DNA from: Oscillospiraceae bacterium
GTDB lineage: Bacteria > Bacillota > Clostridia > Oscillospirales > Oscillospiraceae
Assembly: GCA_017397835.1 (NCBI GenBank)
Contig: JAFQHV010000010.1
Coordinates: 1-41,158 of the forward strand
DNA: 41,158 nt
Reading direction: 5' to 3'
This document shows, in pieces, positions 23,947 through 39,105 of the stretch. Below the pieces are notes generated by a model that worked only from the letters and a program-made list of their open reading frames with translations, did no database searches and was not told the DNA's origin. How positions within the stretch are numbered: position 1 is the stretch's first letter; each line of letters opens with the position of its first letter. A program made the position numbers and the translations under genes.

Positions 23947-23970
23947 GTGTGCGCGCCCCCTTTGGTTATG

Positions 23971-24021
23971 ATTTTACTATATTTAGGATAGTTGCGTCAA
24001 TATACATTTCGCCGATTTAAT
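23971..24021. promoter_or_regulatory. Overlapping divergent promoters, AraC / glycyl radical enzyme
   Basis: Minus strand: TTGACG (23995-24000), 18-base spacer, TAAAAT (23971-23976). Plus strand: TTGCGT (23992-23997), 18-base spacer, TTTAAT (24016-24021). The two -35 boxes occupy the same nine bases, so polymerase cannot use both at once. The plus-strand promoter is the weaker, as expected for activator dependence. Confidence 0.55.
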
Positions 24022-24052
24022 GGTATGGTGTTGAAAAAGGGAGGGGTATGAC

Positions 24053-26032
24053 ATGGATATCTCAAAACGTTTTTTAGAACTGGGTGAATATGGTGCTGCC
24101 GGATTGTTTGAGCAACCGGAGCGCTCGCTGTTCTATCGGAAGGCAATGGGGCTGCGCCGTTATTTGGAGACCTGCCGTCTGCCCGCCTACGAGGGGAAGC
24201 CTCTGTACCCCTCCGGACTGTTGGACAGGGATTATGCCATTGTGCCCAGCTTTATGAATGGGTTTGTGCTGATGCAGGACAACCGGCATCGCATTGGTTC
24301 GGAGCTTGCGGATGCATTCGAGCGGGAGTTTCGCGTGTACAATGGTGGCTCCGTTCCGCCGGAGCACACCATTGCCGGCAATATGTCCCTGCACTCCATT
24401 CCCCATTATGAACGGGTGCTTCGTGAAGGGCTGCTGGCCTACATCCCCCGCATTGAGAAAATAGAAGATGTGGATATGCGGGATGGCCTTTTGGAATTGA
24501 TTGCCGGTATTCAGTGCTGGGTGGATCGGTGCGTGTCTTATTTGAAGTCCGTCCGTGCGGAGGAGCGGGTCATTCAGGCTATGGCCCGTGTTCCACTGTA
24601 TCCAGCCCGGGATATTTATGAGGCGGTTTTTGCATGGAATGCGGTCATGTATTTGGACGGCTGCGACAATTTGGGGTCCCTTGCAAATGGTCTGCTGCCC
24701 TATTTCAATGGGGAAAATATCGTGCCGCTGTTGGAAAACCTGTATGATAATTTGGACATCAATGAAGGTTATTCCATGTCCCTGCACACCAATTATACCC
24801 CCCTGACCCTGCAGTGTCTGGAGGCGGTAAAGGGGCGCCGTCGCCCCATGATCGAGCTGTTTGTGGACGAGACCACCCCGTCTGAGGTGTGGGAAAAGGC
24901 CTTTGAGGCCATCCGTACCAGCTGCGGTCAGCCGGCATTTTATAATCCCAAGGGTATGTTGGGCGGCCTGCAGAAGAAGTTTCCGGAGCTGACGGAGGAG
25001 GATTTGCGGATGTTTTGCGGCTCCGGCTGCACGGAAAGTCAGATTGCGGGCTATACAAACGTGGGCTCGGTGGACTGCGGCATTAACCTGCTTTGGATTT
25101 TGGAGCGCAGTATGTACAGCCGTCTGCCCCGGGCACAGACCTTTGAGGAATTTTACGAGGGGTTCATAGACGATGTGCGGGGCAATGTGGACATCGTCAC
25201 CAGAGAAATCAGCAGTTCTCAAATCAAGCGCAGCAAATACTCCCCGCTGCCCATGCGTACGTTGCTGATTGATGACTGCATCGACAACGGAACCGACTTC
25301 AATCAGTTCGGAACCCGCTATAAGTGGAGCATCGTATCCTTTGGCGGCATGATCAACGTGATCGACAGCCTGCTGGTCATTCGGGACATAGTGTTCCGGG
25401 ACAAGACCTGTGAGAAGGAGGCGTTCCTGCAACTGCTTTCGGAAAGTGATGAGCAGTTTTTGGACCGCTGCCGCCGTCATCCCTGTGCCTTTGGTACCGA
25501 TGACCCGGAGGCCAACGCCATGGCAACTCGCGTCAGCACGGATATTTACTCCATGCTGGACGATAAGAAACCGGCCATGAGCGATGGTTTTCTGCCTGCA
25601 TCCATCATGTTCCGGTCGGTAGCAAACTTCGGCCGCCTTGTGGGCGCTACCCCGGACGGACGTCCCGCCAAAGCGCCCTTGTGCGACTCCCTTGGCGCCA
25701 TTTACGGCAAGGACGTGAAAGGTCCCACGGCCCTTCTAAGAAGTGTGGCATCCCTTGATTTGGAGCGGGCCATCGGCACGCCGGTGCTGAACTTCAACAT
25801 CGACCCCGAAATCGAGGACGAAAAGCTCCGGGCTCTGATATTGGGCTATATGGCCCTGGGCGGACAGCAGATGCAGCTCAGCTGTGCCAGCGCGGAAACT
25901 TTGCAGGAAGCCTACGACCATCCGGAACTGCACCGCAATTTGGTTGTGCGGGTGGGCGGTTTTTCCGACTATTTCAACAACCTGACCGATGAGATGAAGC
26001 GCATGATCATCGCGCGAAGCATCCACAAGTGA
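24053..26032 (+). CDS. Glycyl radical enzyme of unassigned class (PFL-like)
   Basis: The 659-residue protein has both hallmarks of the family. Cys326-Thr327-Glu328 in MFCGSGCTESQI is the thiyl-radical cysteine with the C-x-E arrangement of the eliminases and decarboxylases; pyruvate formate-lyase has Cys-Cys instead. R633-V-G-G636-F-S-DYF near the C-terminus is the glycyl radical loop, with Gly636 as the radical site. It is clearly shorter than pyruvate formate-lyase (about 750) or the diol, choline and hydroxyproline enzymes (about 780-850), and the usual proline after C-x-E is replaced by Ser. The family is oxygen sensitive, consistent with an anaerobe. The activase gene follows after three bases. 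I cannot assign the substrate from sequence. Confidence 0.88.
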   Translation: MDISKRFLELGEYGAAGLFEQPERSLFYRKAMGLRRYLETCRLPAYEGKPLYPSGLLDRDYAIVPSFMNGFVLMQDNRHRIGSELADAFEREFRVYNGGSVPPEHTIAGNMSLHSIPHYERVLREGLLAYIPRIEKIEDVDMRDGLLELIAGIQCWVDRCVSYLKSVRAEERVIQAMARVPLYPARDIYEAVFAWNAVMYLDGCDNLGSLANGLLPYFNGENIVPLLENLYDNLDINEGYSMSLHTNYTPLTLQCLEAVKGRRRPMIELFVDETTPSEVWEKAFEAIRTSCGQPAFYNPKGMLGGLQKKFPELTEEDLRMFCGSGCTESQIAGYTNVGSVDCGINLLWILERSMYSRLPRAQTFEEFYEGFIDDVRGNVDIVTREISSSQIKRSKYSPLPMRTLLIDDCIDNGTDFNQFGTRYKWSIVSFGGMINVIDSLLVIRDIVFRDKTCEKEAFLQLLSESDEQFLDRCRRHPCAFGTDDPEANAMATRVSTDIYSMLDDKKPAMSDGFLPASIMFRSVANFGRLVGATPDGRPAKAPLCDSLGAIYGKDVKGPTALLRSVASLDLERAIGTPVLNFNIDPEIEDEKLRALILGYMALGGQQMQLSCASAETLQEAYDHPELHRNLVVRVGGFSDYFNNLTDEMKRMIIARSIHK

Positions 26033-26035
26033 GCC

Positions 26036-26911
26036 ATGAAAACAGCAGAGATCATTAACATTACCCGATACTGCACGGACGATGGCCCCGGCATCCGCAC
26101 CACGGTCTTTCTAAAGGGCTGTCCGCTGTCCTGCGCCTGGTGCCACAACCCGGAGTCGCAGAAACCGGGCCGAGAGATCCTGTATGCTGCGGACAAGTGT
26201 GTGTTCTGCGGTCGCTGCGTGGAGATATGCCCTCAAAACTGCCACAGGTTTGTTGACGGACGCCACACCTTTTTCAGGGATTTGTGCCTTTCCTGCGGAA
26301 GCTGCGCGGCGGTCTGCCCGACCCAGGCGCTGAACATGTCCGGCTATTCCAAAAGCGTGGAAGAAGTCTTTGAAGAAGTGGCCCGAGACCGTGTATTCTA
26401 TGATGCATCCGGCGGTGGAGTGACGGTTTCCGGTGGGGAGCCGCTGCTGCAGGCGGAGTTTACGGCTGCTTTGCTGGATATGTGCAGACGGGCGGGAATT
26501 CACACCGCGGTGGAAACAAGCGGCTTCGGAACAGTGGCTGCGCTGCAGGCGGTGGCAGAACACAGTGACCTTATCCTGTTTGACCTCAAGGAAACGGATG
26601 AGCAGCGGCATTTGAGTTATACAGGCGTATCCCTCGACCCCATCCTTGCCAATTTGCAATTGCTTGATTCCATGGGGGTCAAAACGGTCCTGCGTCTGCC
26701 CGTCATTCCCGGCTGGAACGACCGGACGGAACATCTGCTCCGGGCCAAAGAGATTGCCGCTTCGCTTGCGCATTGTACAAATGTGCAGGTTATGCCGTAC
26801 CATCAGTTGGGTGCCTATAAATACGCCCTCCTGGGCCGGGAATACCAGTGCGAAAATGTGAACGAGCCGACGAAAGAAACCGTGGCACAGTGGCGGAAAT
26901 TAGTAGAGTGA
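26036..26911 (+). CDS. Glycyl radical enzyme activating enzyme (radical SAM)
   Basis: This 291-residue radical SAM protein installs the glycyl radical on its partner. C29-x3-C33-x2-C36 in GCPLSCAWCHNPES binds the SAM cluster. Two ferredoxin-like [4Fe-4S] motifs follow, C55/C58/C61/C65 and C84/C87/C90/C94, as in activases of dehydratase-type glycyl radical enzymes and unlike pyruvate formate-lyase activase. VSGGEPL at about 131-137 is the SAM-binding GGE block. The gene starts three bases after the enzyme's stop codon, so the two are cotranscribed and matched in amount. Confidence 0.93.
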   Translation: MKTAEIINITRYCTDDGPGIRTTVFLKGCPLSCAWCHNPESQKPGREILYAADKCVFCGRCVEICPQNCHRFVDGRHTFFRDLCLSCGSCAAVCPTQALNMSGYSKSVEEVFEEVARDRVFYDASGGGVTVSGGEPLLQAEFTAALLDMCRRAGIHTAVETSGFGTVAALQAVAEHSDLILFDLKETDEQRHLSYTGVSLDPILANLQLLDSMGVKTVLRLPVIPGWNDRTEHLLRAKEIAASLAHCTNVQVMPYHQLGAYKYALLGREYQCENVNEPTKETVAQWRKLVE

Positions 26912-26981: not shown

Positions 26982-27998
26982 TTACAGCTTAACAGTCTCG
27001 CCGGTGCGCAGGGATTTGGTTTCGGCCAGGGCAATGCGCAGAGAGTCGCGGACGGAGAGAGGATTGGTCAGGTGGGCGCAATCCTTGTCATCCAAAATCC
27101 AATCAATAAAGGTGGTCAGTTCCACAAAGTGGGAGTCCTCGGGAGGAATGTTTTCCTCGTGGCTCTCCTCGTCGGTGTAAACCATCAGCTTCTTTTCGGG
27201 GGTGTAGACGACAGTGGCCTTTTCGAAGTTGATGATGGTCTGCTTGGTGAAGGGGTAGGTCTGGGGCATGGACCAGTCGGCGCTGCCGGTGACAACCTTG
27301 TCGTCGTAGTCGTAGCGGGTGATAACGTTTTCAAGCTCACCCTTATCGTGGGTGCCAACGGAGCGGACGCTCTTGGGCATGCCGAACAGGTAGTTCATCA
27401 GATCCACGTCGTGGATGTGCATATCCAGCACGCAGCCGCCACTCTTTTCGGGATCCAAAATCCAGTTGTTGTAGGTCCACAGAGGGGTCTGGGAGTAGCG
27501 GCAGAACTCCATGCGGCGGACCTTGCCGTAGGTGCCCTCGTCGATAAACTGCTTGATACGCACGGCGGCAGAGGTGAACCGGGCACTTTGGCCGATCATC
27601 AGCTTGGCGGCGGAGCGGTTGGCACACTCAATCATGCGGGTGCAGCCCTCCTCGGTCAGGGCCATGGGCTTTTCGGACAGGATATGGATACCGCGCTCCA
27701 GGGCGTAGAGGGCCACTTCCTCGTGCATGAAGGTGGGGGTGGCGGAAATGACGAAGTCGGGTCTTTCCGTGTCGATGAGTTCCTTGTAATCCTCATAGAA
27801 GCCGCACTGGGTCAGGTCGATTTTGGAGATGTCCACAGTGCCGAAGTTCAGGCTGACGTTCTCAAAAAAGGCTTCCTTGGACGCACCGCAGATGGCGCAC
27901 AGCTTCATGCGGCCGGGGTGTTCCTGTTCCAGACGGAGCATATTGTTCATGTGGACCTTACCAAGGCCGCCAAAGCCGATAATTGCATAGCGAAGCAT
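26982..27998 (-). CDS. Gfo/Idh/MocA family oxidoreductase
   Basis: This 338-residue NAD(P)-dependent sugar or cyclitol dehydrogenase has the Rossmann motif IIGFGGLGKVH, the catalytic-lysine motif SEKPMAL and the C-terminal block GGCVLDMHIHDVDLMNYLFG, whose Asp/His pair completes the active site. The family oxidises or reduces sugars, inositols and amino sugars; substrate is unassigned. It is the last gene of operon B, 15 bases behind an isomerase gene, and is followed by a strong terminator. The association with three xylose-isomerase-like proteins resembles inositol-type gene sets, though none of those specific enzymes is recognised here. Confidence 0.88.
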   Translation of the reverse strand: MLRYAIIGFGGLGKVHMNNMLRLEQEHPGRMKLCAICGASKEAFFENVSLNFGTVDISKIDLTQCGFYEDYKELIDTERPDFVISATPTFMHEEVALYALERGIHILSEKPMALTEEGCTRMIECANRSAAKLMIGQSARFTSAAVRIKQFIDEGTYGKVRRMEFCRYSQTPLWTYNNWILDPEKSGGCVLDMHIHDVDLMNYLFGMPKSVRSVGTHDKGELENVITRYDYDDKVVTGSADWSMPQTYPFTKQTIINFEKATVVYTPEKKLMVYTDEESHEENIPPEDSHFVELTTFIDWILDDKDCAHLTNPLSVRDSLRIALAETKSLRTGETVKL

Positions 27999-28013
27999 AA
28001 GATTTCCTCCTTG

Positions 28014-28832
28014 TTAAATGAGCTGTTGCAGGTTGTGGATGGATTTCTGGGTTTTGAGTAAAGGCTCGTTGTTGGTGATGAGTTCGATGGACAGGGTGCC
28101 GTCGTATCCGGCATTGTCCAGTTCGGCAATGATTTTGCGGATAGGCAGGATACCCTCGCCAACCACGGCGTGGTCAAAACCACGGCCAAACAAGGTCTTG
28201 GGAGGATTGACATCCACGGGCACGGGGTCTTTCAGGTGCACATGGATGGTGCGGTCCAGCAAGGCGACGCAGGCGTCATAAGCTTCGCAGCTTTGTGAAA
28301 TCCAAAAGCTGCCCGTGTCCAGCACATACTGCAGCTCCGGAATGCGATCAAGGTAGAATTTCATATCTTCGATGGTGGCGATGGTACTGTCCTGGCGGGA
28401 GAAATTTTCCAGCACAGTGGTTACGCCGTAGGCGGGGGAGCGCTCCACACACAGGTGGAGAAAATCCAAAATCTGAGCCTGCTTATCCTCTCGGCTCACA
28501 TCGCCGTTGAAGAGGGGGACGGGCATAAAAATATTGGTGTCCAGCATGGCGCAGCGCTCTAAATGGGTGTCGATCTCGTCGGACAGGGCATAGGGGCCTT
28601 TGGCTTTTATGGCATCCAGCCGAATGTCGCAGTACATGCTGGACACGGCGATGCCGGCATCATCCAGCTGCTGCTTGATTTTGACGATGGGGCGTACTTC
28701 AAAGTGGCGGCTGTCGGCGTCCACGCACTGCAGGCCGGCCAGCTCCGGACGGGCCAGCACGCCGGACAGGTTCTCGCAGCCCAGCTGATCCTGCATAACA
28801 AACAGCTGGTGCATAAAGGTTCCGATTTTCAC
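28014..28832 (-). CDS. Sugar phosphate isomerase/epimerase, TIM barrel (third of three)
   Basis: This 272-residue xylose-isomerase-like TIM barrel (AP endonuclease family 2 fold) has putative metal ligands in TVLENFSRQ (Glu), YVLDTGSFW (Asp), HVHLKD (His) and LSIELITN (Glu). It starts at GTG 28832 with AAGGAGGG six bases upstream. It differs clearly from the two upstream paralogues, so the three probably do not catalyse the same step. The neighbouring dehydrogenase gene begins 15 bases downstream. Confidence 0.82.
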   Translation of the reverse strand: MKIGTFMHQLFVMQDQLGCENLSGVLARPELAGLQCVDADSRHFEVRPIVKIKQQLDDAGIAVSSMYCDIRLDAIKAKGPYALSDEIDTHLERCAMLDTNIFMPVPLFNGDVSREDKQAQILDFLHLCVERSPAYGVTTVLENFSRQDSTIATIEDMKFYLDRIPELQYVLDTGSFWISQSCEAYDACVALLDRTIHVHLKDPVPVDVNPPKTLFGRGFDHAVVGEGILPIRKIIAELDNAGYDGTLSIELITNNEPLLKTQKSIHNLQQLI

Positions 28833-28844
28833 AGCAGTCCCTCC

Positions 28845-29669
28845 TTACAGCAGGGCTTCCAGATAAGCCTTGCCGGCGGTGATCTCCGCGTCGCGGTTGG
28901 GGTCGCCGTAGTTCTCACGCTCGATGGTCAGGCTGCCGTCGTAGCCGTACTCACGCAGCACTTCGATCAGACCGGGGAAATCCACGTCACCCTTGCCGAT
29001 GGGCATTTCGTGCTTTTCACACTTGGGGGGAACCAGCTGCAGAGCATCTTTGGCGTGGAAGCCGCGCACGTACCGGCCCAGGAACTTCAGGGTGGTGACG
29101 GGGTGGCTGCCGCGGCCGTTGAGGATGAAGTTGGCGGGGTCGAAGTTGATACCCATGTTGTCCGCGCCCACGTCGTTGAAGAGGTAGACAAGGGACAGGG
29201 GCAGCTCCTCGCCGGTCTCGAAGAGGAAGTACTGGTCCCGCTCCTTCAGCTTCTTGCAGATGTAGCGCAGGGCCTGCACCACGCCCAGATGGTCCCGGTC
29301 GAAGGGGTTGTCGGGCAGGAAGCCGACGTGGGTGATGATGTCCTTGACCCCCAAAGCGTGGGCGAAATCGGCGCCCTTCAAGATGTCCTGAATACGCTGG
29401 GCACGGTACTCGGCGGGGACAAGGCCCAGGGTCAGGTAGCCGTTGGGGTAGGGCCACACCACGGGGCCGGACCAGCCGCACCACACGGCGGTGATAGTAA
29501 AGTTAAAATCCTTGCATGCCCGCTTGATTTCAGCGATTACATCGTCGCTATATAAGGACATATCCCAAATGGACAGCTGGCCGTTGTCAAAACCAAGCTT
29601 TGCGTTGATGGCGATGGCCTCGTAGGGACTGGGGTATTCATCTACTTTGATGAGGATGCCGACTTTCAT
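28845..29669 (-). CDS. Sugar phosphate isomerase/epimerase, TIM barrel (second of three)
   Basis: This 274-residue xylose-isomerase-like TIM barrel has the clearest metal-site pattern of the three: YFLFETGEE (Glu), MGINFDPANFIL (Asp), GFHAKDA (His, Asp) and LTIERENYGD (Glu). The NFDPAN block is typical of ketose 3-epimerase or IolE/IolI-like proteins. The exact sugar is unknown. It lies 20 bases after the first isomerase and 12 bases before the third. Confidence 0.84.
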   Translation of the reverse strand: MKVGILIKVDEYPSPYEAIAINAKLGFDNGQLSIWDMSLYSDDVIAEIKRACKDFNFTITAVWCGWSGPVVWPYPNGYLTLGLVPAEYRAQRIQDILKGADFAHALGVKDIITHVGFLPDNPFDRDHLGVVQALRYICKKLKERDQYFLFETGEELPLSLVYLFNDVGADNMGINFDPANFILNGRGSHPVTTLKFLGRYVRGFHAKDALQLVPPKCEKHEMPIGKGDVDFPGLIEVLREYGYDGSLTIERENYGDPNRDAEITAGKAYLEALL

Positions 29670-29689
29670 ATCTGTGCATCTCCTTTCGT

Positions 29690-30490
29690 TTACAGCAGAC
29701 CGTTGGTGGTCAGCTTGTCACGCAGCCAGGTATAGGACCGGGCGCACTGATCGAAGGGATCGCCGCCGTCGGCGGCAAAGCCAAATTCAATGCTGATGAC
29801 CTCGGCGCCGCCTTCGTTGACGAGGGTTTTGACCAGCTCATCGGTGTCGATTTCGCTTTTCCACATGGGGGTGAGGTAGCGGGTCTCAGCGGCGAAGCCC
29901 TTGAGATGGACGATGGGGGAGCGGTGGGGGAACTTGCGCACCTTCTCAATAGGGTCGGCTCCGCCGGCCATGGCGTTGCCGGTGTCGATCATGTAAATAT
30001 AGTCGTCGTCGGTGTTGCGCAGCAGGTAGTCCATGAAGGACTCCTTGCCGTCCACGAACACCATGTGGTCCCGGTCGTGGTCGTGGTAGCCGGTCTCGAA
30101 GCCGGCATCCTGCAGCCGCTTGGCGACGTTTCGCGCGGTGTCGGCAAGCTCACGGGCCAGGGTGGGGTTGTTGCTGACCTCTTCCAGCGTGGGCTTGGGC
30201 ACGGCGGCCATGATGATGACGGGGCAGTCCATGGCGCGGGCCAGCTCGATGGTGCGCTCCATATCCGGCTCGGAGGCAAAGTACTTCCAGTCCAGCATCA
30301 TGGAGTAGCAGGCAAGGCCGGTTTCCTTCAGGGCCTTGCGGTAACGCTCCGGCTCAAAAGGGCAGTACTGCAGCACCATCTCAACGCCATCGTAACCCAT
30401 GGCGGCTACCTGCTGCAGGGTGGTCTCGGGATCCTCCATAAAGGCGTCGCGCACGCAGTGGATCTGCAGACCGAGTTCGAGTTTTTTCAC
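29690..30490 (-). CDS. Sugar phosphate isomerase/epimerase, TIM barrel (first of three)
   Basis: This 266-residue xylose-isomerase-like barrel starts at GTG 30490 (GGAGG eight bases upstream). The longer in-frame ATG 30508 overlaps that ribosome site and is less likely. Candidate metal ligands are in GYHDHDRDH, MIDTGNAMAGG, HLKGF and ISIEFGFAADGG. It is the first gene of operon B and follows a leader with two TATAAT boxes and a direct repeat. Confidence 0.82.
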   Translation of the reverse strand: MKKLELGLQIHCVRDAFMEDPETTLQQVAAMGYDGVEMVLQYCPFEPERYRKALKETGLACYSMMLDWKYFASEPDMERTIELARAMDCPVIIMAAVPKPTLEEVSNNPTLARELADTARNVAKRLQDAGFETGYHDHDRDHMVFVDGKESFMDYLLRNTDDDYIYMIDTGNAMAGGADPIEKVRKFPHRSPIVHLKGFAAETRYLTPMWKSEIDTDELVKTLVNEGGAEVISIEFGFAADGGDPFDQCARSYTWLRDKLTTNGLL

Positions 30491-30519
30491 AACGCATACC
30501 TCCGTCATTCGTGTCTTAA

Positions 30520-30559
30520 ATTATAAGTGGATGGCACTATTATATAAAAAGCGGATGGC
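30520..30559 (-). promoter_or_regulatory. Promoter region of operon B with an 11-bp direct repeat
   Basis: On the minus strand there are TATAAT boxes at 30539-30544 and 30520-30525, neither with a strong -35. Each is preceded by GCCATCC(G/A)CTT (plus-strand AAGYGGATGGC at 30549-30559 and 30525-30535), 24 bases apart. The repeat straddles the upstream -10 box, so it is a candidate operator. Confidence 0.5.
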
Positions 30560-30620
30560 GAAATCATGTACATACTTAACTGATAACGCTGTAAAAAACA
30601 AATATTTACAAGTCCCATTA

Positions 30621-30654
30621 TAAAAAGAGGGGCGAGGTTTTGCAACCTCGCCCC
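30621..30654 (-). terminator. Terminator of operon A
   Basis: GGGGCGAGGTT pairs with AACCTCGCCCC around a 4-base loop; on the minus strand TCTTTTTA follows. It lies about 55 bases behind the SorE-like gene and shows that operons A and B are separate transcripts. Confidence 0.88.
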
Positions 30655-30707
30655 GACAGTTAGGACCAAAATTATAGGTTATAAGACCAAAGTTGTAAGT
30701 GCGGGAC

Positions 30708-31967
30708 TCAGATCTTCTTGGCGTTGGCCAGCAGGTACTTTTCGGCCTCGGGATTCCACAGACCGTTGTTGGCCTTGCACAGACGATCCAGCTCGGCGAA
30801 CATGGGATCGGTCTTGCCCAGCTCCTCGAACTCGTCGATGGCGGCCAGGGGCAGATCGATGTGGTTGTAGATCAGCTTTTTGCCGCCGGGGATCTTGGGC
30901 AGGTTCAGGATGGTGTCGATGGCCGCGTTCAGGCCGCCGATGTGGGTGACCAGGGCGGAGGGGTTCAGCTTGCCGGCGTTCATCATCTCGATGGCCTCGC
31001 GCATATCGTCGGTGTTGCCGCCGGAGGTGCCAACCACGTGGGTGTACAGGTAGTGGACGTTGTACCAGTTGAAGGGAGCCTTGAACTTGCTGTCGGTGGG
31101 ACCGGCAAAGAAGTTCAGGCAGCCGTCAAAGCCCAGAATGTCGTCCGCCTGCTCGATGACGGGAGCCACGGGAGCGAAGCAGACCACGTCGTCGTAGCCG
31201 GTGCCGCCGGTCAGGCTGCGCAGGTACTCGGTGGCATTCTCCATGCGGGTGTTGACGTAGTGCAGCTCGATGCCGTACTTGGCGGCCTCTTCCACGGTGT
31301 AGATGGAGGCGGCGCGCTTCAGGCGGGCGTCGTCAATGTCGGTGATGACCAGCAGGGAGGGACGGCGGTCACAGTGGATGGCGTAGTCGATGGCGGCCAG
31401 ACCCATGGGGCCGACGGAGGCCAGCAGAGCCATCTTGCCGCCCTCCTTGATGCCCATCTCGTGGACATAGGAGCCGGCCTTGGTGTGGTACATGGCATGG
31501 AAGGTGCCGATAACGCAGCTCAAAGGCTCGGCCAGAGAGCCGTAGTAGTAGGTGTCGGAATCGTAGGGCAGCAGGCAGTCGCAGATCAGGTTCTCGATGG
31601 GAACGTTGCCGTACTGGGAGTTGCCGCCGCAGTAGGAGTAGGAGTAGCCGGGAGCCATCTGGGAACCCTTATAGAAATGGGCGGGCTGGATGACGAACTT
31701 GTCGCCGGGCTTATACTTGTGCTTCCAGTTCTCGCCGACCTCCACGATGTCACCGCAGAATTCGTGACCCACGATGGTGGGATTCACGTCACAGTCGTCG
31801 GGCACGCGCTTGTGCTCGGGACCCTCGATGGCGGCCTTGTAGGTGGACATGCAGATACTGTCGGAGATCACGCGCACACGCACGTCGTCGGGGCCGACGT
31901 CGGGCAGGGTCACGTCATCCAGACGCAGGTCCATCTTGCCATGGATACGGACAGCTTTGGTATTCAT
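30708..31967 (-). CDS. L-sorbose-1-phosphate reductase family dehydrogenase (SorE-like)
   Basis: This 419-residue zinc-dependent medium-chain dehydrogenase has catalytic-zinc candidates in SDSICMSTYK (Cys) and GHEFCGDIVE (His, Glu). The long blocks HVVGTSGGNTDDMREAI, LNLPKIPGGKKLIYN and LWNPEAEKYLLA match my recollection of Klebsiella SorE, which reduces L-sorbose 1-phosphate to D-glucitol 6-phosphate with NAD(P)H. The protein here probably works on a related ketose- or hexitol-phosphate. It is the last gene of operon A, 15 bases behind the MtlD-family gene. Confidence 0.85.
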   Translation of the reverse strand: MNTKAVRIHGKMDLRLDDVTLPDVGPDDVRVRVISDSICMSTYKAAIEGPEHKRVPDDCDVNPTIVGHEFCGDIVEVGENWKHKYKPGDKFVIQPAHFYKGSQMAPGYSYSYCGGNSQYGNVPIENLICDCLLPYDSDTYYYGSLAEPLSCVIGTFHAMYHTKAGSYVHEMGIKEGGKMALLASVGPMGLAAIDYAIHCDRRPSLLVITDIDDARLKRAASIYTVEEAAKYGIELHYVNTRMENATEYLRSLTGGTGYDDVVCFAPVAPVIEQADDILGFDGCLNFFAGPTDSKFKAPFNWYNVHYLYTHVVGTSGGNTDDMREAIEMMNAGKLNPSALVTHIGGLNAAIDTILNLPKIPGGKKLIYNHIDLPLAAIDEFEELGKTDPMFAELDRLCKANNGLWNPEAEKYLLANAKKI

Positions 31968-31982
31968 AGTGTAATTCCTCCT

Positions 31983-33200
31983 TTACACAACTTCACCGAT
32001 GCTGGTGTGCTTGAGAGCATCGGCGGCACGGCGCAGCTCGGCAGGAGCAGCACCGTCAAGAATCTTCCGGTACATGGGCAGGATCAGCTGGGCCAGCTTG
32101 CTGTCGGCAGCCAGACCGGAAACCTCGGCCAGCACCTTGGCAGCGGCGTCCATGGACTGTTCCATACCCTCGGCCTCACGGATATAGCGGTGGACGGCAG
32201 CGGCGGCACCCACGGCGATGTAGGCGGGGGTGATGCCCTGCTCCAGAGCCAGCAGGGAAGAGCCGATCATGCGGTCTGCAGGGGCCAGCTTACGGGCGGG
32301 GTCGCCGCCCACGCGCTGGCAGGTGTCGCCCAGAGCGGCGTTGGTGAAGCGGCCCAGCAGGTCGGTGATGTGCAGCTGCAGATGGATGGGGTCTGCACCG
32401 TACTTCTTGCACAGAGCCATGGCGCTTTCCAACATGGCGTTCTGCACCAGCACGCGGACCTCGGCCACGTCGATGGACTGGTAGATGTAGTCCAGACCCA
32501 GCAGGTCGCCCAGGTAGGCGCAGGTGGCGTGGCCCATGTTGTGGACGTACAGCTTGCGCTTGATGTAGAAATCGAAGGGCTCATAGGGGACCATGTTGCG
32601 GATGTCGGGGACACCGCCCTTGAAGGCCTCCTTATCCGTGGGCAGGAAGCCGTAGCGCTCCACGCACACGCGCATGGGGTCGCCGTCCTTCATTTCCTCG
32701 GTCTGGACGGGGACCATGCGGCCGATGGAAGCCTCAACAAGACCCACGGTCTCGTCGAAGCGCTTGCACTCCTCGGCGGTGAGCTGCTCCTTGAGCATAC
32801 CCTCCAGTACCTTGTTGGCGTCCATCAGGTTTTCGCAGATGATGATGTTCAGAGGGCCGCCGTTGTTTGCCCAGCGCTGACGCAGGCCGGCCACGATGTT
32901 GGGCACGATGAACTTCAGAATGCGGGCGCCCACGGCGGTGGCCATGATGTCACAGTTGGCGATGGCATTGGCGGCGGCAGCGGTATCGTTACCGTTGACA
33001 GCCGTAACATTCTCGATCCAAACGTCCTTATGCCCCTGGCTGGACACATAGCGCACGGGGTAGGTGCGGCGCTGCTGCAGGTCGTTGACCACGGCCTCGG
33101 CCACATCAATGAAGGTGACCTCATAGCCGGACTGGCTGAGCAGAGCGCCAACAAAGCCGCGGCCGATATTGCCGCCGCCGTACATAACAGCTTGTTTCAT
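31983..33200 (-). CDS. Mannitol-1-phosphate dehydrogenase family protein (MtlD-like)
   Basis: This 405-residue polyol-specific long-chain dehydrogenase has the nucleotide-binding motif YGGGNIGRGFVG near the N-terminus, and KRKLYVHNMGHATCAYLG contains the catalytic lysine and the N-x2-H-A signature. MtlD interconverts fructose 6-phosphate and mannitol 1-phosphate. Neighbouring enzymes point to another polyol or keto-sugar phosphate. ATG 33200 has AAGGAGAG eight bases upstream; the frame stays open to 33440 but that part overlaps the kinase gene. Two consecutive polyol-phosphate dehydrogenases suggest a redox-neutral conversion of one sugar phosphate to another. Confidence 0.85.
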   Translation of the reverse strand: MKQAVMYGGGNIGRGFVGALLSQSGYEVTFIDVAEAVVNDLQQRRTYPVRYVSSQGHKDVWIENVTAVNGNDTAAAANAIANCDIMATAVGARILKFIVPNIVAGLRQRWANNGGPLNIIICENLMDANKVLEGMLKEQLTAEECKRFDETVGLVEASIGRMVPVQTEEMKDGDPMRVCVERYGFLPTDKEAFKGGVPDIRNMVPYEPFDFYIKRKLYVHNMGHATCAYLGDLLGLDYIYQSIDVAEVRVLVQNAMLESAMALCKKYGADPIHLQLHITDLLGRFTNAALGDTCQRVGGDPARKLAPADRMIGSSLLALEQGITPAYIAVGAAAAVHRYIREAEGMEQSMDAAAKVLAEVSGLAADSKLAQLILPMYRKILDGAAPAELRRAADALKHTSIGEVV

Positions 33201-33258
33201 TGCTGTTTCTCTCCTTTGGTAGGGGTGGGCCGATGGGTTCCATCGGCCCACCGTGTGA

Positions 33259-34287
33259 TTAAACTCGGGGGCAGGTCTTTGCCAGTTCCCAAACCTGGTC
33301 CGCAGGCAGCATGCCGTCAACGGAGTTTTCCGCAAACAGGCTGGCAGCCGCGGCGGCGGAGGCGTAGGACAGCATATCCTCGTCGGAATAGCCCTGCATG
33401 ATGGAATACAGGCAGCCGGCGCAGAACGCATCGCCCGCACCCACGCTGCCCGCGATGCGGGCGGGGTCCAGTTTCAGGGAATTGACCCGGGTGAAGGTGC
33501 CGGTGGGCACGTCCAGACAGAAGCCGGCGGGCTTGCAGTGGACGACCACCTTGTCCTTGACACCGCAGGCGGCCATCTTTTCCATGGCCAGACGAATGTT
33601 GCCCTCGTTCAGGGAGCCGTCCTCGTTGTAAGGATCCAGATCCCAAACGGCGCAGCACTCGATCTCGTTGATGATGGCGTAGTTGCAGTAGGCAAGGGCA
33701 GGGGGGATCTTGGTGCGGAAGTTGCCCATGCTGTCGCTGACCGCGTCGATGGAGGTCTTGATGCCCATGTCCTGCACCTGCTTGAGGAAGCGGGCCATAA
33801 CGGTGCCGTACTCGGCATCGTCGGCGTCGAAACCGTCCAGCAGCATGATGTAGCCCATGTGTACCAGCTTGCCCTTCAGGGTGGACAGGTCCACGTCGGC
33901 AGGGGAGAACTGGGCGTTGGCGCCCCGGGCGTGGAAGAAGGTGCGCTCGCCGCCCTTGACGCTCATGACGTCGGTGAAGCTGGTGGCAGCGGTGGAGGTG
34001 CGCTTGACGCGCCGGGTATCGATACCGTGACGGTCCATCTCACCCACCACGTAGTCGCCGTAGGCATCCTCACCCACCAGGCCGATGGCGCCCAGACCGA
34101 AGTCGGGGTTCATCTTGGCCAGGTCGATGATGGTGTTGGTCACGCAGCCGCCCACAGACTGCTGGGGCATGGCGGTGATGTTGGCCAGCATACCCTGTTC
34201 GGGATAGCAGTCCACGCGCTTGACCACGTCAACGATGATGTTGCCGCCGATCCAAAGATCGGGGGTTTTCTTATTGCAGCAGCCCAT
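33259..34287 (-). CDS. PfkB family carbohydrate kinase
   Basis: This 342-residue ribokinase-family protein opens with LWIGGNIIVDVVKR, carries the GGCVTNTIIDLAK block for sugar binding, and ends with GSVGAGDAFCAGCLY, where the Asp is the catalytic base. Its sugar specificity cannot be inferred. The start ATG 34287 has no clear ribosome site and sits five bases beyond the stop of the NagB-like gene, so translation is probably coupled to that gene. It would phosphorylate the free sugar released upstream in the pathway. Confidence 0.88.
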   Translation of the reverse strand: MGCCNKKTPDLWIGGNIIVDVVKRVDCYPEQGMLANITAMPQQSVGGCVTNTIIDLAKMNPDFGLGAIGLVGEDAYGDYVVGEMDRHGIDTRRVKRTSTAATSFTDVMSVKGGERTFFHARGANAQFSPADVDLSTLKGKLVHMGYIMLLDGFDADDAEYGTVMARFLKQVQDMGIKTSIDAVSDSMGNFRTKIPPALAYCNYAIINEIECCAVWDLDPYNEDGSLNEGNIRLAMEKMAACGVKDKVVVHCKPAGFCLDVPTGTFTRVNSLKLDPARIAGSVGAGDAFCAGCLYSIMQGYSDEDMLSYASAAAAASLFAENSVDGMLPADQVWELAKTCPRV

Positions 34288-34292
34288 ATCGA

Positions 34293-35231
34293 TCAGTTCA
34301 CGTCGGGAACCAGGGGACCGGCCAGCTCGCTCAGGTAGAACAGCTTACCGGGGAAGGTGGGCATATAGCTGGAGGTGATCCACATGCTGGGACCATAGTG
34401 CAGGGTGGTCAGGAAGCTCATGCCCTGCCAGCCCATGCCGCGGCCCAGAGCGCCGTCGGCGCCGCCGATGATGTAGTCAGCCTGGAACAGCAGGCCGGGG
34501 CCAACGGTGTTGGCGCGGCAGGGAACCAGGGTGGTGCGGCTCTTGAAGCTGGTGATGGCGTTCTGCTCGATGGTCAGGGGGTGCAGCTTGGCGGCGATGC
34601 GGTGGGTCTGAGCCTTCCACTCGGCCTCGCTGGCGAACTCAGCGGCAAACTGAGGCTCCCAGAAAGCGATGTGGCACATACGGCCGATGCCGAAGATCAG
34701 CACCAGCTTGGCACCCTCGGCCTTCAGAGCAGCGATCTTGCCGGCGTAGGTGGGCAGGTTGTCCTTGGTGGCGAAGTTGCGCTGATTCTCGGGGATGGTC
34801 AGCTCACCCAGGGGGTTGAAGAAGGCCTGCTTCATGCAGAACTCGAAGGCAGCGGGGTCGGTGTTGGGCAGGGTAGTGCCGTTCTCGTCAGCCCACTCGT
34901 CCATGTTGAAGGTGTAGCAGTGGTCGCACTTGACGTTCCACTCCTTCAGGAAGTAGACGGCCCAGCGGTACATGCCCATGGGGCCAACGGGGATGATCAT
35001 GGCCAGCTTCTCGCCGCGCTCGCGAGCCAGCTTGATCTGCTGGGCGATCTCGTGACCCATCATCATGTCAAACTCGTGGATGTTGTCGCAGGCGACGGGC
35101 TGGAAGTCCTTGTGCCAGAAATCCTCGCGCTGCACACCCTTCTCGCAGCAGGCGTCGATCTTGGCCATATCCCAACCGGCGGGGTAGAAGCCTTCCAGCA
35201 GGGAGTTCTTAACAGTGCTCATAAAATCCAT
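34293..35231 (-). CDS. NagB/glucosamine-6-phosphate isomerase-like protein with altered active site
   Basis: This 312-residue protein has the NagB/6-phosphogluconolactonase fold signature. TFNMDEW (107-113) matches the YxxNMDEY motif with its proton-transfer Asp. [13 protein letters not shown] (181-193) matches GIGxDGHIAFNEP of NagB, but the catalytic Asp is Met185 and the following Gly is Cys, while the His is kept. It is also longer than NagB (about 240-270). A true aldose-ketose isomerase/deaminase might therefore be modified in specificity or lost; a different sugar is the simplest reading. AAAGGAGAA precedes ATG 35231. Confidence 0.75.
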
Positions 35232-35295
35232 GATAATTTCTCCTTTTCGTTTGTTTTATTTTAAGTTTTTAACTTAACAGATTTGGGTGCGGGGA

Positions 35296-36165
35296 TCAGA
35301 AGGGGATCAGTTCCTCGCGGAATTCGCCGCCGTACTCGCATAGCTGATAGAACTCGGCGAAGGGGATCTTGCTGCCCTTCTCGATGCCGTAGCGCTTGAT
35401 GAGCGCGTCACGGAACTTGGCGGTCTTGCGGGCGAAGCGGTACTCGCAGATTTCACTTTGCTGGGGCTCGTTCATCTGCTCCAGAGTCAGGGGAGTGCCC
35501 TCACGGGGCACGCGGGTGCCGTGCAGCCACTCCAGACGCTCCGCGGCGCCTTCGGGCACGGTGTCCAGGGTGTGGTAGGTCCAGGGCAGCCACTCGTACA
35601 TCTGGGACACGTGCAGGTCCATCATCTCAAACTGCTTGTCGATGACATCGGTGGTATCCACAGCCACATCGGGAACGAAGGGGGGATTCTGGAAATCATC
35701 GCTGAAGAAGAGGATGGCGGGCGTGCTGGGCAGGGCGGGGGTATCGGGGCAGAAGTTGGGCACGATCAGCATGTAGGACGCATCCTGCACCAGGATGGCG
35801 GCATTGCGGTGGTCGGCGTGATAGTCGTTGGGACGGTTGCAGAAGATGATGTCGGGGGCGAACTTGCGAATGTCGCGCACCAGACGCTCACGGTTTGCGA
35901 TGGTGGCCTCCACCATGCAGTCGTGAGAGTCCTCCCACACGTCATATTCCAGACCAGCGAACTTACCCACGGCCAAGGACTCGCCACGGCGGCGCACGCG
36001 AATCTCTTCGGGGGACATCTCGTGATGGCCGCGGTCACCGTTGCACAGGGACAGGAACTTGACGGTGTGGCCGGCAGCGATGTACTTCAGGGCGGTGCCG
36101 CCGCAGGAGATGTCACAGTCATCGGGATGGGCGCCGATCATCAGAACGCGCAGTTTTTTGCTCAT
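35296..36165 (-). CDS. PIG-L family deacetylase (second gene of operon A)
   Basis: This 289-residue LmbE/PIG-L zinc hydrolase removes acyl groups from the amino nitrogen of GlcNAc-type sugars in known members (PIG-L, MshB, BshB). GAHPDDCDISCGGTA (11-25) supplies zinc ligands His13 and Asp16 and the base Asp15. NDYHADHRNA holds the stabilising His116 and the zinc ligand His119. All catalytic positions are therefore present. ATG 36165 has AGGAGG upstream. It is adjacent to a second, divergent paralogue. Confidence 0.88.
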   Translation of the reverse strand: MSKKLRVLMIGAHPDDCDISCGGTALKYIAAGHTVKFLSLCNGDRGHHEMSPEEIRVRRRGESLAVGKFAGLEYDVWEDSHDCMVEATIANRERLVRDIRKFAPDIIFCNRPNDYHADHRNAAILVQDASYMLIVPNFCPDTPALPSTPAILFFSDDFQNPPFVPDVAVDTTDVIDKQFEMMDLHVSQMYEWLPWTYHTLDTVPEGAAERLEWLHGTRVPREGTPLTLEQMNEPQQSEICEYRFARKTAKFRDALIKRYGIEKGSKIPFAEFYQLCEYGGEFREELIPF

Positions 36166-36186
36166 GATATGTAACCTCCTTTAAGG

Positions 36187-36888
36187 TCAGGGAAGCATGC
36201 GCTTGGTGAACACCTTGGGCCAGGCATAGCACTGGGTGAAGGCCTCGGCATACTGGACGTTGCTCTGCAGGCCGCGGAAGCGGGCGCAGGTCTTGACGAA
36301 CTCGGCAAAGTCGATGTGGTCATGGTCGCGCATCCACTTCATCTGGCTGACGTGGCACTCCAGCATCTCCAGCTTCAGGTCGATGGTGTCGGAGATGTCC
36401 ACATACTCGGTGGGCTGGAAGTTGACACCGGCCAAAGTGTCCATGTAGTACAGGGGGGTCAGGGGAGCAGCCTCGCCCTGGCCGTCCATGTAGTGGGGGA
36501 CGCTGGCGGCAAAGGTGGCGTCGAAGACCAGCTTGCTCACCGCGGTGTGGTCGGGCATATAGTCGTTGGGGCTGTGGGTGATGATGACGTCGGGCTGAGC
36601 CTCGCGGATCACCTTAACCACGCGGTCACGCTGCTCCTGGTTGGGGTAGGCCAGCAGGTCGCCCACGTCGCAGGTGATCACCTTGATGCCGGCCAGAGCG
36701 CCGGCGTTGCGGGCCTCCTGAGCGCGCATGGTGCGCAGCTCGTCAGGCTGGATGATGGCGTGGCCCAGGTTGCCGTTGCACACGTGGCAGACGGTGACAT
36801 TGTGGCCCTGCTTGACATACTTGGCCAGGGTACCGGCACATGCGACCTCGATGTCATCGGGATGGCAGCCGATTGCAAGAACGTTCAT
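36187..36888 (-). CDS. PIG-L family deacetylase, His-to-Met variant (first gene of operon A)
   Basis: This 233-residue LmbE/PIG-L protein has the zinc site IGCHPDDIEVACAGT (His9, Asp12, base Asp11) and the last ligand His114 in NDYMPDHTAV. The His of the H-x-D-H motif, which helps stabilise the reaction intermediate in MshB, is Met111. It shares the fold but only limited sequence with its neighbour, so the two probably act on different substrates or as a pair. ATG 36888 follows AGGAGG and is the first gene of operon A. Confidence 0.86.
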   Translation of the reverse strand: MNVLAIGCHPDDIEVACAGTLAKYVKQGHNVTVCHVCNGNLGHAIIQPDELRTMRAQEARNAGALAGIKVITCDVGDLLAYPNQEQRDRVVKVIREAQPDVIITHSPNDYMPDHTAVSKLVFDATFAASVPHYMDGQGEAAPLTPLYYMDTLAGVNFQPTEYVDISDTIDLKLEMLECHVSQMKWMRDHDHIDFAEFVKTCARFRGLQSNVQYAEAFTQCYAWPKVFTKRMLP

Positions 36889-37033: not shown

Positions 37034-37912
37034 ATGAGCTTTGAGCAAGCGCCCGTCAAGCGGGAAATAGAAATTGAGGGGTTTCACGCCCTGTACTATT
37101 TTGAGTTTGACCGGAATTTTTACCATCCGCCGGAGCGGCACGATTTTTGGGAGCTGGTCTACGTGGACGACGGCAACATCAACGCCGTTGTAGACGGCAT
37201 CGGCTGCAGCCTCAGCCGGGGTCAGGTCATCTTCCACCAGCCGGGGGAGAACCACTCCCACATCGCCAATGGCGAGGATGCCAGCAACGTGGTGGTAGTG
37301 TCCTTCTCGTGCAAAAGTCCTGTGATGTCCTTCTTTAACCGCAAGATTTTTACCCTGGAGCGGGCGCCGAAGAGAATCTTATCCCTGTTTTTGGAGGAGG
37401 CACAAAATGCCCTTGGCAAGCTGCCGGGGGACTACGCCGACAAGGCGGCCCCCGACTTCTCCCACGCCGCCCCCGGTGCAGCCCAGCTGATGGAGTGCTA
37501 TCTGGTGGAGTTTTTGTTTTCCCTCATTCGCAGCGATGAAAACTCCGTGCTGGCTATGAGTCAGACTCCGGACACCCGGCGTCTGGCGGAGAGTTCTCTG
37601 TCCGATTCGGTGGAGAGCTATATGGAGCGGCACCTGGCCGAGCCGCCGTCGCTGGACGTTTTGTGCCGCCACTTCAGTGTCAGCCGCACCTACCTGTGCC
37701 GCATCTTCCGGGAAGCGACCGGAACTAGTCCTGTGGATCACTGGACCCACCTGAAGATCAAGCGGGCCAAGGCGATGATCCGGCAGGGCGGCTACAACAT
37801 CACGCAAATTTCCGAGCAACTGGGGTATTCCAGCATTCACCACTTTACCCGCATGTTCAAGCGGGTGACCGGTATGGCGCCCACGGCCTACCGGGACAGT
37901 GTGGGTACGTAA
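37034..37912 (+). CDS. AraC family transcriptional regulator (next to operon A)
   Basis: This 292-residue regulator has an N-terminal cupin domain (HDFWELVYVDDG, GQVIFHQPGENHSH) and a C-terminal AraC double helix-turn-helix (SLDVLCRHFSVSRTYLCRIFREATGTSP; ISEQLGYSSIHHFTRMFKRVTGMAPTAYR). It is divergent from operon A with overlapping promoters, so it most likely controls operon A; control of operon B is possible. A flavoprotein gene follows ten bases downstream, probably on the same transcript. Confidence 0.9.
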   Translation: MSFEQAPVKREIEIEGFHALYYFEFDRNFYHPPERHDFWELVYVDDGNINAVVDGIGCSLSRGQVIFHQPGENHSHIANGEDASNVVVVSFSCKSPVMSFFNRKIFTLERAPKRILSLFLEEAQNALGKLPGDYADKAAPDFSHAAPGAAQLMECYLVEFLFSLIRSDENSVLAMSQTPDTRRLAESSLSDSVESYMERHLAEPPSLDVLCRHFSVSRTYLCRIFREATGTSPVDHWTHLKIKRAKAMIRQGGYNITQISEQLGYSSIHHFTRMFKRVTGMAPTAYRDSVGT

Positions 37913-37921
37913 GGAGGCAGT

Positions 37922-38776
37922 ATGGAACAGACGATCATTGTTTTGGGCGGTGGCCCGGCGGGACTTGCGGCGGCCATCGCGGCCCGCAGCCGGGATAAGC
38001 GGGTGCTGGTCATCGGTAATCCGATTGAGAGCAGCGCACTGGCCAAGGCGGAGCGGGTGGATAACTACCCGGGCCTGCCCGGGTTAACCGGCATGGAGCT
38101 GCTGGAAAAGATGCAGACTCATGCAAAGAATATGGGCGCGGAGTTTATCACGGGACGTGTCATCGCCGCCATGAGCTGGGGCGACAGCTACGCCCTGACC
38201 GTGGGCAGTGAGGTGTATCAGTGCGGTGCGCTGGTGCTGACTCCCGGTGTGGTACAGACTGCCAAATACCCCGGGGAGGAGCGGCTGCTGGGCCGCGGTG
38301 TCAGTTACTGTGCCACCTGCGACGGCATGCTGTACCGGGGCAGGGACGTGGTGGTGGTTGGCCGCACCGAGGATGCTCCGGCAGAAGCCAACTTCCTGCA
38401 GTCCATCGGTTGTAAGGTGACTTACATTGCCACAAAGAGGCCGGAAAGTCTGAATGAGAGTGTCGGATACCTGCCTCTGGGCAAACTGGAAGTGACCGGA
38501 GAGGACCGGGTGGATGGCATTGTTCTGAACGGGGAAAAGTACCCCTGTGACGGTGTATTTATCCTGCGTAAAGCTGTGGCGCCCGCCGACCTGCTGATGG
38601 GTCTGGAACTGGACAGCGGCGCCATCCGGGTAGACCGCTCTATGGCGACCAATCTGCCCGGTGTCTTTGCTGCCGGTGACTGCACGGGCCGGCCCTATCA
38701 GGTGGCCAAAGCAGTGGGGGAAGGCTTGACAGCAGGAGAGTGTGCAGTAGAATACCTTGACAGTAAAAATCAATAA
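37922..38776 (+). CDS. Thioredoxin reductase-like flavoprotein without NADPH motifs (ferredoxin-dependent type)
   Basis: This 284-residue protein has the FAD motif GGGPAG (9-14), the redox pair C130-A-T-C133 in YCATCDG, and the C-terminal FAD block GVFAAGDCTG. The NADPH-binding motif GGGxxA is replaced by GRTEDA, and the HRRxxxR motif that grips the 2'-phosphate is replaced by ATKRPES. It is also shorter than TrxB (about 305-320). These are the features of the ferredoxin-dependent flavin thioredoxin reductases of clostridia. Thioredoxin follows 14 bases downstream as the likely partner. Confidence 0.85.
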   Translation: MEQTIIVLGGGPAGLAAAIAARSRDKRVLVIGNPIESSALAKAERVDNYPGLPGLTGMELLEKMQTHAKNMGAEFITGRVIAAMSWGDSYALTVGSEVYQCGALVLTPGVVQTAKYPGEERLLGRGVSYCATCDGMLYRGRDVVVVGRTEDAPAEANFLQSIGCKVTYIATKRPESLNESVGYLPLGKLEVTGEDRVDGIVLNGEKYPCDGVFILRKAVAPADLLMGLELDSGAIRVDRSMATNLPGVFAAGDCTGRPYQVAKAVGEGLTAGECAVEYLDSKNQ

Positions 38777-38790
38777 GGAGGATAATATTT

Positions 38791-39105
38791 ATGACCATTC
38801 ATTTCAACAAAGAGGGATTTGAGAAGGCGCTGGCGTCCGGCCAGACCATGCTGGTGGATTTTTGGGCCGGCTGGTGCGGACCCTGCAAGATGCTGGCACC
38901 CACGATCGAGGCTCTGGGCGAGCAGTACGAGGGCAAGGCCATCGTGGGCAAGATCGACGTGGATGAGGAGCAGGAGCTGGCCATCCGGTACGGGGTCATG
39001 TCCATCCCCACCGTCATCTTTTTCAAGGGCGGTGCCGAGGTGGAGCGCAAGGTGGGCGTCATGCCCGCCCAGGCCTATCAGGACGTGCTGGACAAGTTGG
39101 GTTGA
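38791..39105 (+). CDS. trxA: Thioredoxin
   Basis: This 104-residue protein has the canonical active site W28-C29-G-P-C32 and the cis-proline loop MSIPTV. It is a soluble disulfide reductant. GGAGGATAAT precedes ATG 38791, 14 bases after the reductase-like gene, so the two form a redox pair on one mRNA. Confidence 0.96.
   Translation: MTIHFNKEGFEKALASGQTMLVDFWAGWCGPCKMLAPTIEALGEQYEGKAIVGKIDVDEEQELAIRYGVMSIPTVIFFKGGAEVERKVGVMPAQAYQDVLDKLG

Follow-up and report, generated by a model that had tools for sequence, protein, structure and literature searches.

In the NagA/NagB pathway for N-acetylglucosamine-6-phosphate, a de-N-acetylation is followed by the action of a NagB-fold enzyme. In the L-sorbose pathway, SorE forms glucitol-6-phosphate, which a second dehydrogenase converts to fructose-6-phosphate, and in E. 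coli K-12 the gene for another zinc dehydrogenase, yggP, sits between cmtA and yggF and adjoins the CmtAB mannitol phosphotransferase system (PTS). A further group of relatives is the PIG-L family, with BshB1 and diacetylchitobiose deacetylase. The present study concerns a cluster of ten genes that recalls each of these systems in part. It lies on contig JAFQHV010000010.1 of an Oscillospiraceae bacterium (assembly GCA_017397835.1), of which the stretch of 41,158 nucleotides is referred to below as the window. The genes encode two PIG-L proteins, a NagB-like protein (NAGBL), a PfkB-family kinase, an MtlD-like and a YggP/SorE-like dehydrogenase, three TIM barrel proteins and a Gfo/Idh oxidoreductase. 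PIG-L and NAGBL were found to be the firm, conserved core of the cluster, with a variable periphery.

The locus departs from each of the described systems. Where the classical pathway has NagA, this cluster has PIG-L; NAGBL has neither the phosphate loop of NagB nor the Asp of the NagB motif Asp-Gly-His (DGH), and the canonical genes are located elsewhere in the genome. The zinc dehydrogenase had been labelled SorE-like in an earlier sequence-only reading of the window, a label that holds at 47% identity to annotated SorE, though the protein is closer (55%) to annotated E. coli YggP. Here, however, its partner is MtlD-like, its gene lies behind those for PIG-L, NAGBL and PfkB, and there is no PTS among the ten genes.

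A total of 106 loci with NAGBL, 100 of them distinct by NAGBL sequence, were compared, and same-strand partner genes no more than 6 kb away were counted. PIG-L was present in 82 of the 100 distinct loci, followed by PfkB (35), Gfo/Idh (33), class II aldolase (13) and DegT (9), while MtlD (5), a GH127-like gene (5), the TIM barrels (4), SorE (3) and NagA-like genes (2) were rarer. In 20 SorE-centred background loci, counted on either strand, no PIG-L, PfkB, aldolase or DegT gene was found, and Gfo/Idh and MtlD occurred in two and three, respectively; these loci were taken from 20 of the 65 SorE-positive genomes, a choice that biases them. The conserved neighborhood of PIG-L, NagB-like and SorE-like genes that had been proposed as a check was borne out for the first two, with SorE a rare partner. 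The view of the ten genes as one coherent set was also not supported: all ten were found together in one of the 100 loci (L053, from a near relative) and relatives of TIM barrel 3 at E 1e-30 occurred in three of the 197 genomes of the order, the source genome included, the other two being 33-34% identical.

The association of the core genes extended beyond gene order. NAGBL was detected at E <=1e-20 in 32 of the 197 genomes of the order and occurs in nine of the families sampled; 30 matches were strong (E <=1e-91), and those in G153 and G186 were about 30% identical. Relatives of PIG-L 1 at E <=1e-30 were present in 31 genomes, of which G021 (E 4.9e-38, 36% identity) was excluded as a likely paralogue, leaving 30. 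Both genes occurred in 28 genomes, NAGBL without PIG-L in G160 and G175, and PIG-L without NAGBL in G153 and G158 (Fisher 2.4e-29, relatedness not controlled). The two genes were on different contigs in five of the 28 genomes (one of these, G102, may reflect a contig break) and about 81 kb apart in G087. Because the overlap includes such unlinked pairs, it is probably a functional link, and not a shared operon alone, that keeps PIG-L and NAGBL associated. The distribution within the source family was patchy, with NAGBL in four of 150 genomes at E 1e-20, one of which (G253) was a weak match, and two further genomes from the source genus gave no NAGBL match at that threshold. Scanning named genomes turned up at least 557 stretches with NagB-like relatives, and of the best 80, which were turned into loci, 40 had titles naming a herbivore host (goat, sheep, deer, buffalo, yak, horse) and 40 had no readable host.

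Of six inspected places that carry a more distant NAGBL relative, five had another amide hydrolase nearby. A NagA-like amidohydrolase adjoined the distant NAGBL in L140, L141 and L124, a ceramidase-like gene adjoined it in L196, and in L060 ceramidase-like and NagA-like genes were near it with one small gene between. In L195 no amide hydrolase was found in the 6.9 kb around the distant NAGBL, where a contig end cuts the locus upstream. The NagA-like gene of L140 (G153:C43:28677-29831) scored above the NagA cut-off (TIGR00221), while elsewhere the name was given by likeness to that gene or by reading; similarly, ceramidase-like denotes a Pfam match in L038 and similarity in L060 and L196. L060 and L124 contained a distant and a close NAGBL, PIG-L and a window-type PfkB within one region. 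The recurrence of amide hydrolases beside NAGBL relatives supports a de-N-acylation ahead of the NagB-like step. In L038-L041 members of one gene family, with a neutral ceramidase N-terminal domain in the single member scanned, stood behind PIG-L, NAGBL and Gfo/Idh, and it is possible that these are further amide hydrolases.

NAGBL had no Pfam match at E 0.001 and scored 46.8 bits against the NCBIfam nagB model (TIGR00502), below the cut-off of 236.9. The predicted structure (mean pLDDT 81.5) has a NagB fold, the best matches being 3hn6 and 1dea with a target-normalised TM score of 0.73; the model was weak at residues 186-194, which contain the changed motif, and 221-237. In an alignment of 12 sequences, the phosphate loop of NAGBL was two residues shorter than that of five canonical NagB proteins, one of them from the same genome, and at the DGH motif NAGBL had no Asp, while NMDE, the motif His and the Glu were invariant. 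The same pattern held over 101 NAGBL rows (95 distinct sequences): the shortened loop, P[VA]GPMGMY, and both NMDE and HxAFxEP were present in all 101, and the DGH Asp site was occupied by Met (94), Ala (4), Val (2) or Thr (1). The phosphate ligands of NagB include K208 and R172, and Asp72 has a role of its own; as read from the alignment, R172 and K208 appear to be lost in NAGBL. PMC4281351 describes the phosphate-loop region as binding the substrate phosphate in deaminases. NAGBL would appear to be without the usual grip on a 6-phosphate.

The conserved motifs of the PIG-L proteins are intact. The HPDD and DH sites were invariant in an alignment of 16 PIG-L sequences and are common to PIG-L 1 and PIG-L 2, which share 33% identity. 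Among named deacetylases the nearest to PIG-L 1 was BshB1, and its solved relatives include 6p2t and 8bgn, which rank behind the LmbE-related 2ixd. However, the two proteins reached 138 (PIG-L 1) and 97 bits against the BshB1 model (TIGR04001), below the cut-off of 182.5, and the partner here is NAGBL. The NCBIfam model PRK02122 (NF002557), a glucosamine-6-phosphate deaminase-like protein, was matched weakly at two separate parts, NAGBL aligning with the first third of the model and PIG-L 1 with the second half. Both scores, 25.5 and 21.9 bits, were far under the cut-off of 384 and two separate genes are present here, but the split match suggests, from sequence similarity, that a natural fusion of NAGBL-type and PIG-L-type parts exists.

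These observations point to a real amino-sugar module, undescribed so far as the open literature searched shows; the reactions, their order and the substrate are what we infer from it. The sequence-only reading had proposed that an amino sugar is deacylated, isomerized, phosphorylated and converted by redox enzymes, putative steps that fit the individual parts and their neighborhoods, although the genes are not one conserved set. We judge the chances to be about even that the locus is catabolic for an N-acylated hexosamine, or its glycoside, and is built on the two-enzyme core. In such a route PIG-L would strip the N-acyl group, NAGBL would isomerize and deaminate the liberated amino sugar, giving a ketohexose and ammonia, and PfkB would phosphorylate the resulting ketose. 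The ketose phosphate would then, in this genome, be reduced by the YggP/SorE-like enzyme to a hexitol phosphate, which the MtlD-like enzyme would oxidize to fructose-6-phosphate, while in some relatives an aldolase may follow the kinase instead of the dehydrogenase pair; of the 13 loci with class II aldolase, 11 also had PfkB. The Gfo/Idh enzyme and the TIM barrels of the second unit would perhaps free or remodel the sugar via a keto intermediate. The pairing of PIG-L and NagB as a pathway was not found among the matches listed from the open full-text papers searched; the sequence-only reading likewise named no pathway known to have its combination of genes.

A more specific form of this scheme, which we put forward tentatively, is a widespread hexosamine route on the unphosphorylated sugar, in which PIG-L would be joined by a NagB descendant that would deaminate free hexosamine to free ketose, and phosphorylation would come after. 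Here, a ketose-1-phosphate would pass to a hexitol phosphate (e.g. mannitol-1-phosphate) and then to fructose-6-phosphate via the YggP/SorE-like and MtlD-like enzymes. By analogy with the L-sorbose pathway, a ketose-1-phosphate could reach fructose-6-phosphate in this way; with fructose-1-phosphate, the hexitol phosphate would be mannitol-1-phosphate, whose symmetry would let MtlD act at the other end. The best NCBIfam MtlD model gave 282 bits, so the cut-off of 356 for the mannitol-1-phosphate 5-dehydrogenase equivalog was not reached. The best start of the MtlD gene was the ATG at 33200, the open reading frame (ORF) list beginning at a GTG 240 bases upstream; the Pfam, NCBIfam and PDB searches used the protein from 33203, one residue longer. 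SorE-like genes were present in 22 of the 30 NAGBL genomes and in 43 of the 167 others, phylogeny being ignored.

Several observations weigh against a hexosamine catabolic locus of this kind, 1) the invariant Arg and Lys residues that NAGBL keeps could bind an anion elsewhere, and because they remain the loss of the phosphate loop is no proof of an unphosphorylated substrate, 2) the loss of the DGH Asp could mean a different reaction, 3) the data do not settle the order of the steps, in which the kinase could act last or earlier, 4) PIG-L was the sole listed partner in 25 of the 100 loci and 12 had no same-strand partner from the list inside 6 kb, some of them cut by contig ends, 5) MtlD and SorE are seldom beside the core, SorE-like genes usually not lying next to NAGBL, 6) in the order, SorE/YggP-like genes more often accompanied an apparent dehydrogenase complex, with E1, E2 and E3 together in 12 of the 20 SorE loci, 7) many of 30 further picked neighbors were unrelated or belonged to other glycan families (MatE, ClpB-type AAA, tRNA synthetase, SLH, GH10, GH113, GH65, amylase, rhamnosidase), and 8) we know of no measured activity for any enzyme here. 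At least one of the three components of the lipoate-dependent dehydrogenase complex, which were named by reading alone, was present in 13 of the 20 SorE loci. The neighborhood is exemplified by L181:575-9008 and also occurs in L178, L179, L183-L188 and L190-L192; an MtlD gene follows in L181, L178 and L184.

The neighbor proteins submitted to Pfam were hand-picked in five sets of ten, and some of them suit a role in amino-sugar use while many do not. A NAGLU (alpha-N-acetylglucosaminidase) domain directly preceded PIG-L in L129, and a GH3 gene, from a family that includes hexosaminidases, belonged to the run of same-strand genes in L085 and L121, the former also with an amidohydrolase. A weakly GH127-like gene stood before PIG-L and NAGBL in L035/L073, L036/L079, L068, L069 and L070, with sulfatase-fold and PTS EIIC genes nearby and a solute-binding protein in some, so that solute-binding and PTS EIIC genes are near the core in this group. 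No transporter recurred across locus groups among the neighbors scanned, and no dedicated search for a co-occurring transporter was made over all relatives. A DegT/DnrJ aminotransferase adjoined a Gfo/Idh gene and the core in L037/L104 (same genome), L083, L094, L098 and L102, and could serve a diamino sugar.

The strongest competing explanation is a variant of the ordinary NagA/NagB route, in which the sugar would be phosphorylated first, NAGBL would grip the phosphate with other residues and PIG-L would replace NagA. The retention of NMDE, His and Glu of NagB, together with the invariant Arg and Lys, is consistent with this, as is the position of distant NAGBL relatives next to amidohydrolases of the NagA-like family, whose usual substrates are phosphosugars. 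Canonical NagB was below the cut-off in 12 of the 30 NAGBL genomes; the other 18, the source genome included, also have canonical NagB. The source genome has four NagA places above the cut-off among the matches listed and NagB at 396.7 bits; in the order, the NagA cut-off was passed in 128 and the NagB cut-off in 109 of the 197 genomes. Because ordinary NagA and NagB are encoded elsewhere in the same genome, the NAGBL route is not simply the standard N-acetylglucosamine-6-phosphate route. The variant is further opposed by the shortened phosphate loop of every NAGBL row and by the PIG-L enzymes known to us, which act on unphosphorylated sugars, and we consider it unlikely. The core as a general replacement of NagA/NagB was likewise considered and rejected, given the presence of both in the source genome and of canonical NagB in 18 of the 30.

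The second unit raised the possibility that the locus serves mainly for oxidative (3-keto) glycoside cleavage, with the Gfo/Idh enzyme and the TIM barrels splitting a hexosaminide and the core using the freed sugar. The best PDB matches of TIM barrel 3 were 8tcd, 8tcs and 8tct, the first two named 'sugar phosphate isomerase' and 'xylose isomerase-like', and those of the Gfo/Idh enzyme include 8tdi, a glucuronide-3-dehydrogenase; what is said of 8tcd and 8tdi is taken from the PDB entry names. A TIM barrel and a Gfo/Idh gene also recur near NAGBL, e.g. in L049, L062, L066 and L100. This likeness hints at keto-type glycoside chemistry, though the model scores are low: the glycoside 3-dehydrogenase cut-offs were not reached (BT_2158 family, 31 of 750 bits; BT_2159 family, 28 of 650 bits). 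Moreover, window-type TIM barrels lay near NAGBL on the same strand in four of the 100 loci, and a second, different TIM family near Gfo/Idh and NAGBL in six, the query locus included. Terms for the 3-keto glycoside route gave no match in the open full-text literature. As the main function, such cleavage seems quite improbable.

Inositol or amino-cyclitol catabolism, the other substrate class named in the sequence-only reading, proved weaker and is very unlikely. The Gfo/Idh enzyme, TIM barrel 3, PfkB and the zinc dehydrogenase do match the IolG, IolE, IolC and IolM models, respectively, but all far below the cut-off (105 of 355, 54 of 290, 67 of 300 and 61 of 450 bits), and conservation lies in the core of PIG-L and a NagB fold, not in the inositol-like unit. 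Biosynthesis or salvage of an amino-sugar compound, for which the resemblance of PIG-L 1 to BshB1 and the DegT/DnrJ aminotransferases near the core in nine of the 100 loci might speak, is highly improbable given the AraC regulators and the sugar kinase, aldolase and glycosidase-type neighbors, and no glycosyltransferase or nucleotide-sugar enzyme, by family, is among the ten window genes.

The features of the locus are given in Table 1. Ten ORFs fill the interval 26982-36888 on the minus strand, as the sequence-only reading had described, and nine of the ten proteins scored above curated Pfam cut-offs (two PIG-L, PfkB, Mannitol_dh, zinc ADH, three AP_endonuc_2 and Gfo/Idh), NAGBL being assigned by its weak nagB match and fold. 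The first group is transcribed in the order PIG-L 1, PIG-L 2, NAGBL, PfkB, MtlD-like and SorE-like, and the second, after a 199-base gap (30509-30707), comprises the three TIM barrels and then the Gfo/Idh enzyme. The ten genes are probably two transcription units, as proposed, the gap containing a terminator-like stem and promoter-like sites. These matches are weak evidence, however, because terminator-like sites were no commoner than expected in the region (7 versus 7.8 expected); there were 8 promoter-like sites versus 3.4 expected. Family searches, which took in the ten genes and six flanking genes, found no glycosidase and no transporter family among the ten, in agreement with the earlier description, which had named glycosidases, PTS and ATP-binding cassette transporters as absent.

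Table 1. Coordinates of the cluster genes, the intergenic elements and the divergent regulator
Feature	Position	Strand	Basis
PIG-L 1, putative de-N-acylase, core gene	36187..36888	-	Pfam PIG-L (PF02585) 95 bits, cut-off 28.2
PIG-L 2, second putative de-N-acylase	35296..36165	-	Pfam PIG-L 76 bits, cut-off 28.2
NAGBL, core gene	34293..35231	-	Best fold-search matches glucosamine-6-phosphate deaminases, E 2.7e-14
PfkB-family sugar kinase	33259..34287	-	Pfam PfkB 88 bits, cut-off 25.8
MtlD-like polyol-phosphate dehydrogenase	31983..33200	-	Pfam Mannitol_dh above cut-off; 3h2z E 8.6e-61
YggP/SorE-like zinc dehydrogenase	30708..31967	-	55% to annotated E. coli YggP, 47% to SorE, over 99-100% length
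Terminator-like stem-loop behind first unit	30629..30654	-	11 pairs, T-rich tail
Promoter-like site ahead of second unit	30520..30548	-	10/12 consensus matches
TIM barrel 3, weakly IolE-like	29690..30508	-	Pfam AP_endonuc_2 54 bits; best PDB 8tcd/8tcs
TIM barrel 2	28845..29669	-	Pfam AP_endonuc_2 109 bits; 3tva E 7.2e-33
TIM barrel 1	28014..28832	-	Pfam AP_endonuc_2 92 bits; Art22 8z1i E 1.1e-8
Gfo/Idh/MocA oxidoreductase	26982..27998	-	Pfam GFO_IDH_MocA 74 bits; 8tdi (glucuronide-3-dehydrogenase) among best PDB matches
AraC-type regulator, divergent	37034..37912	+	AraC-family models match, all below cut-off

The divergent AraC gene probably regulates the cluster; an AraC gene resembling one of the two in the window was present within 6 kb, on either strand, in 39 of the 100 NAGBL loci. 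Directly behind it, at 37922-39105, are genes for a thioredoxin-reductase-like protein (below the TRX_reduct cut-off) and a thioredoxin, which are also present at that place in L053. On the other side, at 23146-26911, the window contains an AraC gene, an activase that exceeds its model's cut-off and a glycyl-radical enzyme of 659 residues that falls well short of the PFL2-3 cut-off, and this block stands between the cluster and a glutaminyl-tRNA-synthetase-like gene. In L053, where the matching place was inspected, a gene read as glutaminyl-tRNA synthetase begins 144 bases behind Gfo/Idh and the block is not there. Because the locus of this close relative lacks the block, the glycyl-radical enzyme and its activase are not part of the cluster; as a pathway member the enzyme was rejected, and one of the 100 loci had a match to it no farther than 6 kb from NAGBL.

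If the hexosamine reading is correct, many gut Clostridia would have a second amino-sugar route, masked by a NagB-like protein that Pfam does not recognize. It would also provide a testable reaction for E. coli YggP, which is annotated only as a putative dehydrogenase by the mannitol PTS.

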